Assembly: GCA_900553635.1 (NCBI GenBank) | Contig: USDU01000011.1 | Span: 1-22,833 of the forward strand | Source: an uncultured Lachnospiraceae bacterium | Lineage (GTDB): Bacteria; Bacillota_A; Clostridia; Lachnospirales; Lachnospiraceae | DNA: 22,833 nucleotides | Direction of reading: 5' to 3' | Shown: in pieces, positions 20,580-22,833 of the stretch | Numbering within the stretch: position 1 is the stretch's first letter | Layout of the letters: every line of letters starts with the position of its first letter | Translations under genes and position numbers: made by a program | The notes under the pieces: generated by a model | What the model was told of the DNA's origin: nothing | What the model saw: the letters and a program-made list of their open reading frames with translations, nothing else | Database searches by the model: none

Positions 20580-20910
20580 TTTTTTAATTCCCTTTCAATA
20601 TGATCTTTCCACGATTCAAACTATCATAGGAAGTAAGAAAAAGCAAGGGGGAACTGCCGGATACTTCTTTGTGAACTATGCATAGGGGATTTCTGGGGAA
20701 TTTTATGAAGGTAAATTGCGGAAATGCATAAAAATTTTGCATTTCCTCTTTTCTATTTTGTAGTTTTGCATTAATATATAGATTAGGTATTTAGTGTTTT
20801 AGAGAAAACAGGGGTGTTTTTTTGTAAATTTTGCCAGATATGCGATGGGAGAAGGACTGGCGATATGCACAAATACAAAGACTATATGCAAAAAAGGAGC
20901 GGAGAGAGTT
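20580..20910. other. 331-base divergent regulatory gap between the YitT and PucR-like genes
   Basis: No gene is supported here. The left part holds the ribosome binding site and a possible weak minus-strand promoter for the YitT gene. The middle holds a perfect 9+9 palindrome at 20720-20746 and several TGCAT motifs. The right part is AT-rich (around 20750-20830), with no clean consensus promoter for the PucR-like gene; TTGCAT near 20766 followed by AT-rich sequence is the best but poor candidate. A short stem TGTTTT/AAAACA near 20797-20812 precedes a T run. Confidence 0.6.
20720..20746. promoter_or_regulatory. Palindromic site upstream of the PucR-like regulator, possible operator
   Basis: GGAAATGCA at 20720-20728 and TGCATTTCC at 20738-20746 are perfect inverse copies around an AT-rich nine-base centre. 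Further TGCAT motifs lie nearby, including CTATGCATAG near 20680 and TTTTGCATTAAT near 20764. The position between divergent genes, one of them a regulator, suits an operator; which protein binds is unknown. Confidence 0.5.
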
Positions 20911-21999
20911 ATGATTTCGAATCAGGTACTGCAGAATACGATTGACGGTCTCAAAGGAATTACCCGGATCGATCTTTGTGTGATTGATACCGAGGGTAAA
21001 GTTCTTGCGTCTACTTTTCCGGAGGCGGACGCTTATACAGGGTCTGTGCTTGCTTTCATTGATTCTCCGGCGGACAGCCAGGTGATTCAGGGCTTCCAGT
21101 TTTTTAAGATTTTTGACGATACGCAGTTGGAATATATTCTTCTGCTGAACGGCGGAAGTGAGGATGCGTATATGATTGGCAAGCTGGTGGTCTTCCAGAT
21201 CCAGAATTTACTGGTTGCATATAAGGAGCGTTTCGATAAAGATAATTTTATCAAGAACCTGCTTCTGGACAATCTGCTTCTGGTGGATATCTACAACCGC
21301 GCCAAGAAGCTGCATATCCAGACTGAGGTGCGCAGAGCTGTCTTTATCATTGAGACGGGGCGGGAGAAGGATACGGCTTCTCTGGAAAATGTGCGGACAC
21401 TGTTTGGCACCAAGTCCCATGATTTTATCACAGCTGTGGACGAGAAGAATATCATTGTGGTCAAGGAACTGGCAGATAATGAGGGGTATCCGGAGCTGAA
21501 CCGTACGGCCAGGGTGATCTGTGATCTGCTGAACAGCGAGGGCGACGAGCACGTTCATATCGCTTACGGCACCATTGTGAATGAAATTAAAGAAGTGTCC
21601 CGTTCCTACAAGGAAGCGCGGATGGCTCTTGACGTGGGCAAGATTTTCTTTGATGATAAGGATATTATTGCCTACAGTACGCTGGGTATCGGCCGTCTGA
21701 TTTATCAGCTGCCGATTCCGCTGTGCAAGATGTTTATCCGGGAAATTTTTGATGGCAAGTCTCCCGATGATTTTGACGAGGAGACTCTGACCACCATCAA
21801 TAAGTTTTTTGAGAACAGCCTGAATGTGTCTGAGACATCCAGACAGCTGTATATCCACCGCAATACACTGGTGTACAGGCTTGACAAGCTGCAGAAGAGT
21901 ACGGGCCTTGACCTGCGGGTTTTTGAGGACGCGATTACCTTCAAGATCGCGTTGATGGTTGTAAAGTATATGAAGTACATGGAATCTATGGATTATTAA
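20911..21999 (+). CDS. PucR/CdaR-like transcriptional regulator
   Basis: A 362-residue regulator of the CdaR/PucR type, also called sugar-diacid regulators. The C-terminal domain is the PucR helix-turn-helix: FFENSLNVSETSRQLYIHRNTLVYRLDKLQKSTGLDLR with the signature HRNTL at 316-320. The middle resembles the GGDEF-like domain of this family (HIAYGTIVNEIKEVSRSYKEARMALDVG). The N-terminal about 130 residues (IDLCVIDTEGKVLAST...) look like a small sensory domain. I chose the ATG at 20911 with AAGGAG and GGAGAGA just before it; an ATG at 20845 would add 22 residues with no family look. It is followed by a structured inverted repeat and then ftsE on the same strand. Ligand and targets are unknown. 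Confidence 0.85.
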   Translation: MISNQVLQNTIDGLKGITRIDLCVIDTEGKVLASTFPEADAYTGSVLAFIDSPADSQVIQGFQFFKIFDDTQLEYILLLNGGSEDAYMIGKLVVFQIQNLLVAYKERFDKDNFIKNLLLDNLLLVDIYNRAKKLHIQTEVRRAVFIIETGREKDTASLENVRTLFGTKSHDFITAVDEKNIIVVKELADNEGYPELNRTARVICDLLNSEGDEHVHIAYGTIVNEIKEVSRSYKEARMALDVGKIFFDDKDIIAYSTLGIGRLIYQLPIPLCKMFIREIFDGKSPDDFDEETLTTINKFFENSLNVSETSRQLYIHRNTLVYRLDKLQKSTGLDLRVFEDAITFKIALMVVKYMKYMESMDY

Positions 22000-22134
22000 T
22001 TACTGTTCGTAGACACTATTCCGCGAGGTGTTTTGGCATGGATATGCCAAAATCCCGAGGTATATAAGCGCGAACTTACACAGAATGTGTAAGTTCTGTG
22101 CATCGCGGAGCGTGTTACTGGAACAGTAACATTA
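21997..22134. repeat. Imperfect inverted-repeat element with cloverleaf-like folding before ftsE
   Basis: Outer arms TACTGTTC (22001-22008) and GAACAGTA (22121-22128) are exact complements, extended outward by TAAT/ATTA. Inside them CCGCGA (22021-22026) pairs with TCGCGG (22103-22108). Within that, two perfect hairpins stand side by side: TTTTGGCAT/ATGCCAAAA (22031-22052, 9 bp, loop GGAT) and GAACTTACAC/GTGTAAGTTC (22072-22096, 10 bp, loop AGAAT). A further hairpin TGTTACTG/CAGTAACA (22113-22131) competes with the outer stem. It fills the gap between the PucR-like stop codon and the ftsE ribosome binding site. It may be a structured leader RNA or a dispersed palindromic (MITE-like) element. 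Confidence 0.75.
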
Positions 22135-22160
22135 TTAAGCTTCGGCTGAGGAGTGAAAAA

Positions 22161-22833
22161 ATGATTGACATGCAAAATGTGACAAAGTCCTATGCCACGG
22201 GCGTGCAGGCCTTAAACGGCGTGACGCTGCATATTGACAAGGGCGAATTTGTTTTTATCGTAGGAAACAGCGGTTCCGGTAAGTCTACGCTGATTAAGCT
22301 GCTTCTGAAGGAGCTGGATCCCAGCTCCGGAACCATTAAGGTAAATGGAATTAATCTGAATAAGATGAAAGCGCAGGCCATCCCCAAGTACCGCAGAAAG
22401 CTGGGCGTGGTGTTCCAGGATTTCCGTCTTCTGAAGGACCGGAATGTCTATGAAAATATCGCGTTCGCCCAGCGGGTTATCGCGACCCCAAGCAAGGATA
22501 TCCGCAAGAATGTGCCGAAGATGCTGTCCCTGGTGGGACTGGCGGAGAAGTATAAGTCATTCCCGAAGCAGCTTTCCGGCGGCGAGCAGCAGCGTGTGGC
22601 TCTGGCGAGAGCCCTGGTGAACCGGCCCAATATTCTTCTGGCCGACGAGCCCACCGGTAATCTGGACCCAAAGAATTCCAGGGAAATCATGAAGCTTCTG
22701 GAGACTATCAATGAGCGCGGTACCACCGTTCTGGTGGTGACCCACAACCAGGAGATTGTAGATCAGATGAAGAAGCGGGTAATTGTTATGAACAAAGGCG
22801 TCATTATCAGTGACGAGCGCAACGCTGGGTACA
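22161..22833 (+). CDS. ftsE: Cell division ATP-binding protein FtsE, cut at the window end
   Basis: An ABC ATPase of 224 visible residues; the full protein is usually about 230, so only a few residues are missing. FtsE pairs with the membrane protein FtsX to control peptidoglycan hydrolases during division, and in spore formers such as B. subtilis FtsEX also acts in sporulation. Motifs: Walker A VGNSGSGKST, Q-loop VVFQDFRLL, ABC signature LSGGEQQRVALARAL, Walker B ILLADEPTGNLDP and the switch His in VVTHNQE. MIDMQNVTKSYATGVQALNGV is the typical start, seven bases after GAGGAG at 22148-22153. ftsX would be expected just beyond the window. The 161 bases upstream hold the structured inverted-repeat element. 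Confidence 0.95.
   Translation, partial: MIDMQNVTKSYATGVQALNGVTLHIDKGEFVFIVGNSGSGKSTLIKLLLKELDPSSGTIKVNGINLNKMKAQAIPKYRRKLGVVFQDFRLLKDRNVYENIAFAQRVIATPSKDIRKNVPKMLSLVGLAEKYKSFPKQLSGGEQQRVALARALVNRPNILLADEPTGNLDPKNSREIMKLLETINERGTTVLVVTHNQEIVDQMKKRVIVMNKGVIISDERNAGY

Follow-up and report, generated by a model that had tools for sequence, protein, structure and literature searches.

The stretch preceding ftsE in this uncultured Lachnospiraceae bacterium is, with a probability of roughly 0.88, one copy of a Lachnospiraceae MITE family that was most likely mobilised by an IS66-family transposase. The window, i.e. the whole analysed stretch of 22,833 nucleotides, carries this copy between a PucR-like regulator gene and ftsE, with the features listed below.

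20845..21999, + strand: PucR-like regulator (ORF call; intact frame; stop codon inside the duplicated target)
21992..21999, + strand: left target-site duplication copy ATTATTAA (8/8 identity with 22131-22138; its last 3 bases are the PucR-like stop codon)
22000..22130, + strand: whole element, 131 bp (covariance-model match and alignment A2)
22000..22009, + strand: left terminal inverted repeat TTACTGTTCG (GTTACTGTTCAC in same-genus copies)
22021..22059, + strand: core with hairpin 1, CCGCGAGGTG - TTTTGGCATGGATATGCCAAAA - TCCCGAG
22068..22101, + strand: hairpin 2 with one U bulged out and one G.U pair, GCGC-GAACTTACACA / TGTGTAAGTTC-U-GUGC
22114..22130, + strand: right-end palindrome GTTACTG-GAA-CAGTAAC, i.e. 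an inner terminal-repeat copy plus the right terminal repeat (equivalent same-genus form GTTACTGGTCACGGAGTGAACAGTAAC)
22131..22138, + strand: right target-site duplication copy ATTATTAA
22148-22155, + strand: likely ftsE ribosome-binding site GAGGAGTG, outside the element
22161..22833, + strand: ftsE (ATG at 22161; the gene runs past the window end)

The window copy and its fold

The regulator upstream is of the PucR type (HTH_30 domain match) and the downstream gene is FtsE (TIGR02673, score over the cut-off), as the preliminary description had named them. The element starts one base past the regulator stop and ends at 22130, which is 17 nt before the likely ribosome-binding site, or 9 nt when counted from the duplication end at 22138. 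Because the insertion target contained its stop codon, the PucR-like frame remains closed. The covariance model matched the window with 117 bits over model positions 1-142, at 21999-22130. Compared with the common 142-bp form, the window copy lacks the first G of the left terminus and has lost 10 bp from the loop of the right-end hairpin. Its ends read TTACTGTTCG and GTTACTGTTC, and its terminal inverted repeats are 9 bp long and perfect.

The predicted fold of positions 21990-22160 reached -66.5 kcal/mol, against a mean of -39.7 over 200 dinucleotide shuffles (z -7.3), and none of the 200 shuffles folded as low. Thus, the pairing is indeed far above chance, as had been claimed beforehand. All stems are perfect, namely an outer stem of 9 bp (22000-22008 / 22121-22129), a middle stem of 7 bp (22020-22026 / 22103-22109) and two inner hairpins of 9 bp (22031-22039 / 22044-22052) and 11 bp (22072-22082 / 22086-22096). 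An alternative right-end hairpin of 8 bp (22113-22120 / 22124-22131) competes with the outer stem. Regarding the stem lengths proposed earlier, the 9-bp inner hairpin was reproduced and the middle stem fell within the given 6-8 bp, while the outer stem had to be corrected from 8 to 9 bp and the other inner hairpin from 10 to 11 bp.

A known Rfam RNA family was ruled out, as neither the window nor any of 13 loci gave a match at the gathering score; two weak matches to miRNA families lay far under it. An intrinsic terminator was also rejected, the only terminator-like site being located outside the element on the opposite strand. A simple scan gave no promoter-like site within the element.

Terminal repeats and 8-bp target duplications

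From 141 core matches, 108 copies with both ends were obtained, of which 98 were unique. The length of 86 of the 108 full copies was 140-145 bp, and with 131 bp in the window the element is too short for a transposase. The terminal inverted repeats share the form GT(T/A)AC(T/A)(A/G)TTCA(C/G); in relatives they were 10-19 bp long, mostly 12-16 bp with one mismatch allowed, as measured in an end-assignment round in which the duplication had partly guided the choice. The window element (22000-22130) is flanked by the perfect duplication ATTATTAA. When ends were set by the repeats alone and not by the duplication, perfect 8-bp duplications were found in 52 of 81 distinct insertions (swapped-flank control 0.8%), and duplications with at most one mismatch in 64 of 81 (control 1.1%). 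A separate count gave duplications with at most two mismatches in 66 of 78 end pairs lying 130-180 bp apart and in 0 of 77 pairs at 600 bp or more. The family therefore shows what characterises a MITE, namely small size without a transposase, terminal repeats, a duplication of fixed length and many unrelated loci.

Several related units were observed as well. At L142 3405-3637 (Oliverpabstia intestinalis) and L190 1260-1492, the element is 233 bp long, its hairpin 2 region being larger by about 91 bp; each of the two sites has a perfect duplication of a different sequence, which suggests that the 233-bp form was transposed as a whole. Micro-units of 27 bp consist of two terminal repeats back to back, e.g. 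GTTACTGGTCACGGAGTGAACAGTAAC (L072, L078, L082, L084, L245, L248 and others). An 8-bp duplication with at most one mismatch was present at 16 of 33 distinct 27-bp units (loci and eight lengths scanned), and these units are either tiny transposed units or deletion remnants between direct repeats of the 142-bp form. No site among the loci compared was occupied by the 142-bp form in one genome and by 27 bp in another. G001, the nearest genome compared, contains a different element family of 129-143 bp with the same terminal repeats and another hairpin interior (GAATCCGGCC...GGCCGGATTC); it has 8-bp duplications at L069, L075, L217, L218 and L219, and a 33-bp unit at L217. Other mobile elements, with ends CAATGTCATTAAGTTAA, were found inserted within palindromic units (L012 1635, L063 1515, L083 33, L087, L210, L215, L216, L220, L221), and one such copy adjoins a 375-aa DDE_Tnp_1 transposase (L083). 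These elements may have a target preference for palindromic units; the copy seen in L081, L255 and L310 lies outside any palindromic unit.

Dispersal and genomic context

The preliminary description had offered a small non-autonomous palindromic element as one of its two readings and a search for copies at unrelated loci as a check. That search was positive. Kinship was judged from G001: of the 31-letter words sampled from the window, it shares 36%. With the 138-bp query, 29 matches, part of them shorter than full length, were found in 5 of 41 relatives, all five belonging to G001's genus, and their surroundings varied. The core pattern (CCGCGAGGTGTTT, gap, AAATCCCGAG) occurred in at least 120 stretches in named genomes. 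Among the 80 stretches listed, the record titles were Lachnospiraceae, Blautia, Fusicatenibacter, Oliverpabstia, Murimonas, [Clostridium] symbiosum, Clostridium transplantifaecale, Lachnoclostridium and unnamed Clostridia/Eubacteriales. A covariance model trained on 21 full-length copies scored 21 of 299 family genomes (21 of 298 genera) as carrying the element, and 10 of these 21 genomes had at least 10 matches each. Exact GTTACTGTTCAC sites numbered 151 in 6 genomes vs 1 for the reversed control pattern. The palindromic-element reading is hence borne out by dispersed copies, terminal repeats and 8-bp duplications, together with the missing element at the junctions described below.

Two insertions (L011/L017 and L021/L026) occupy the same site in two genomes of the genus, G014 and G008, so some copies are probably vertically inherited. 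Contig ends adjoin terminal repeats (e.g. G013 C16, C60 and C136), which suggests that the element breaks assemblies. The core pattern had no match in viral contigs, and a same-genus copy used as query had none in plasmids. In the phage collection, element-like sequence was present in three unannotated faecal records (MT838670.1, MT839053.1 and MT839183.1), and in one of them the similarity, at 73% identity, extends over more than 90% of the query; they are either phage-borne copies or misfiled bacterial contigs. The pattern GTNACNRTTCA gave no match in the window, a result of little information since it missed even the window copy's own ends.

Genomic context was counted by crude ORF calling for those 78 of the 98 unique full-length copies that had 700 bp on each side. 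Within tandem gene pairs, 27 copies lay with and 24 against the gene direction; 15 separated divergent genes, 5 separated convergent genes, 4 seemed to interrupt a frame, and 3 were without a gene on one side. Gene ends lay within 30 nt of copies in 27 of 61 cases on the stop-codon side and in 15 of 81 on the start side. The absence of any preferred orientation speaks against an obligatory function in a host sense transcript.

The regulator-ftsE junction in relatives

The other earlier reading was a structured 5' leader controlling ftsEX. The regulator-ftsE junction was present in all 16 genomes of G001's genus, and none of the 16 carried the element there. In each of them similarity ends at most 2 bases from the regulator stop and resumes at ftsE, and the distance from the regulator stop to the ftsE ATG is 32-98 nt vs 161 nt in the window. 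Once the 131 nt of the element and the 8 nt of one duplication are deducted from the 161-nt gap, 22 nt remain, and the pre-insertion site in the window lineage would read ...GATTATTAAGCTTCGG.... Because the junction is kept while the element is not, an ancestral ftsEX leader is unsupported.

A cis-acting leader RNA controlling ftsEX in the window's own lineage is very unlikely too. It would fit the strong fold of the window sequence, its position between the regulator stop codon and the ftsE ribosome-binding site, and the covarying structure of the family; however, besides the 16 empty junctions, copies occupy unrelated loci and both orientations occur, and the predicted pairing of the ftsE start region (20 nt) shifts only from 0.38 without the element to 0.49 with it. 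Covariation had been expected beforehand to mark a leader RNA; the strong covariation found here belongs to a mobile element. A single-strand (HUH) element, whether REP/RAYT or of another type, can be given hardly any credence: the palindromic right end and the abundance between genes resemble it, yet 8-bp target duplications are present and contradict the REP/RAYT assignment, and the terminal inverted repeats are held in common with DDE insertion sequences. REP/RAYT and HUH elements are not known to make target duplications.

IS66-family insertion sequences with matching ends

An 8-bp duplication and GTAA-like ends are features of IS66, which was the reason why this family was guessed as the partner. 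Insertion sequences with such ends were then found. L407 (2358 bp) has the ends GTTACTGTTCACACCC / GTTACTGTTCAGACGC and the duplication GCCGGAAT; L408 (1984 bp), with a stop interrupting its frame, has GTTACAGTTCACACCC at each end and the duplication GTATTAGA; L261 (1819 bp) has GTAACTATTCAGAACC at each end (16/16 identical) and the duplication CCGCAAAG; and L255 (1804 bp), whose ends differ at 3 of 16 positions, has the duplication GAGTTTGA. In L327, GTTACTGTTCAC stands at each end and a duplication is absent. GTTACTGTTCAC matches 12/12 at both ends of L327 and at the left end of L407. Overall, the 8-bp duplication was present in 4 of 9 complete IS66-family insertion sequences with such ends and readable flanks, and missing in the complete L314, L315, L324, L327 and L406 (5 of 9) as well as in the shortened L322 and L336.

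Transposases of these insertion sequences match PF03050 and NF033517, that of L408 by PF03050 only. The NCBIfam IS66 cut-off was passed by the L261 and L255 transposases, while those of L407, L327, L315 and L406 (546-581 aa) scored 137-162 bits vs a cut-off of 180; all six L407-type transposases tested passed the Pfam cut-off. As the terminal repeat of the element, or close variants of it, also ends IS66-family insertion sequences, 4 of 9 with 8-bp duplications, an IS66-type MITE is the most likely assignment, and we infer that the element was moved by an IS66-type transposase acting in trans. As a control, the 30 best-scoring of the PF03050 loci listed were inspected, and 0 of 30 carried element-like ends; this control is partial because the available flanks sometimes stop short of the ends. 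The control loci in which ends and duplication were located (3 of 30) read GTAACCGTC, GTAAGTAGG and GTAAGCGTC.

Several findings speak against this assignment, above all that a recognisable partner is missing from many genomes that carry the element; the insertion sequences without a duplication and the window copy's missing left terminal G are further ones. Of 35 element-bearing genomes, 8 had matches to the L407 transposase, and in 3 of these the matches were short remnants only. The matches in G008 and G014 were of 26-29% identity only, and the L261-type subgroup was found there instead. At E<=1e-30, the L261 transposase was present in 8 of 299 family genomes, and only G001 among them also has the element. 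Among the 21 genomes with the element, 10 had an IS66 transposase of any kind, vs 81 among the 278 without it, a weak association (Fisher p 0.088). MITEs can outlive their partner transposase. The model for the two-hairpin interior had no match in the insertion sequences L406, L407 and L408. A long-element candidate in G042, with end-like sites 2.1 kb apart, was rejected since the interval holds ordinary genes.

A covarying two-hairpin core

Compensatory base changes, the other check put forward beforehand, were abundant. Alignment A1 comprised 40 of 49 picked cores. Of the 542 cells in alignment A2 (21 divergent copies), 97.8% were paired; its 81 double-sided changes compare with 24 in shuffles and no more than 16 in slid controls. 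Alignment A3 (36 model hits, 35 of them distinct) had 97.5% of its cells paired, and 170 double-sided changes vs 45 in shuffles and at most 33 in slid controls. The shuffles ignore relatedness, and the slid controls agree with them in direction. Most arm letters of both hairpins change between genera with the pairing kept. The rows of A2 came mostly from the core pattern and, with the window exempt, had to contain TGTGCAT after hairpin 2, the arms being free; because of these two filters the invariance of motifs in A2 is partly selection-made. The rows of A3 are mostly of other genera and were not picked by the core pattern, although they were found and fitted with the model built from A2.

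Imperfect features recur in A3. CGAGG(T/C)G and CCCGAG were both present in 25 of the 36 model hits (4 of the rows in this count being short), 29 of 36 had TGTGCA including its bulged U, and the G.U pair of hairpin 2 was kept in 27 of 31 rows. Judged from the letters, the CGAGG/CCCGAG flanks could stack as C-G, G.A, A.G, G-C, G-C. In a second branch, the hairpin 1 core is kept and hairpin 2 is replaced by a longer hairpin. Mismatches in well-paired hairpins comprised 21 G.U vs 7 A.C, an excess that hints at a + strand RNA; the strand test is weak because one loop-end pair gives 10 G.U counts of the unfiltered set.

What the fold is kept for can be read in more than one way. It is possible, though put forward only tentatively, that the element carries a functional RNA in its core, which would be a protein-binding or processed module, and that selection keeps the transcript and not the DNA. 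Such an RNA would explain the pairing and double-sided changes on the 35 distinct rows of A3, the recurring non-canonical features and the lean of the mismatches to + strand RNA. The unbiased orientation to neighbouring genes, the weak strand test, the missing Rfam family and the missing promoter-like site, all given above, count against it. Another process, which we regard as rather doubtful, would be hairpin self-correction, in which template switching rewrites one arm from the other and so produces the covariation at least in part. The large excess of double-sided over one-sided changes (81 vs 8 in A2, 170 vs 25 in A3) is what it would leave behind; however, self-correction would erase imperfect positions, and many copies across genera keep the G.U pair, the bulged U and the CGAGG/CCCGAG mismatches. 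These imperfect motifs are partly fixed by the choice of rows in A2 and not in A3, though the A3 model derives from A2. We infer that the two-hairpin core is kept for the element itself, in transposition or in tolerance by the host, rather than for ftsEX. More speculatively, a structured RNA module may ride IS66-type MITEs throughout Lachnospiraceae, its two covarying hairpins, one with the CGAGG/CCCGAG loop and one with the bulged U, being recognised by a host or transposon protein.

For the MITE reading, the following course of events is proposed. An IS66-family transposase, from subgroups with ends GTTACTGTTCAC or GTAACTATTCAG, would be produced elsewhere in the cell and act on the terminal repeats, inserting the element into a target with an 8-bp stagger. 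The insertion would duplicate ATTATTAA across the regulator's stop codon. Copies that keep the fold would be those that spread or are tolerated. The fold would sit in any transcript running from the regulator into ftsE, and any effect there would be a by-product.

Relation to known elements

Structured bacterial MITEs such as ERIC/RU, RUP and Correia/NEMIS are, like this element, about 100-150 bp long, intergenic, dispersed, foldable and without a transposase; they differ from it in host, duplication length and partner family. The IS66-family insertion sequences described above share with the element the GT(T/A)AC(T/A)(A/G)TTCA(C/G) ends and, in 4 of 9, the 8-bp duplication, whereas the full insertion sequences encode a PF03050 / NF033517 transposase and the element is non-coding with 131-142 bp. 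They presumably are of the single-transposase type resembling ISBst12. In the accessible part of PMC8024623, ISBst12 is listed as an IS66 subgroup.

MITEPsy1, in the accessible part of PMC3189936, is a 100-nt non-autonomous element with terminal repeats near those of ISPsy2; its duplication is 4 nt and its family is given there as 'IS5?', whereas the element described here has 8 nt and a probable IS66-type partner. In the accessible parts of the literature searched (including PMC10969869, PMC8024623 and PMC3189936), no description of the family, the fold or the IS66 link was recognised. The class of MITEs is already known, and the family, its fold and its IS66 link are absent from those parts of the literature and from Rfam.

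Since covariation is often read as a mark of cis-regulatory RNA, the element also serves as a warning for searches for leader RNAs. It further raises the question why a non-autonomous transposon keeps one fold across 21 genera despite the change of its letters. Should a structured RNA module indeed ride these MITEs, each insertion would install that module in a new transcript, here that of the regulator and ftsEX.
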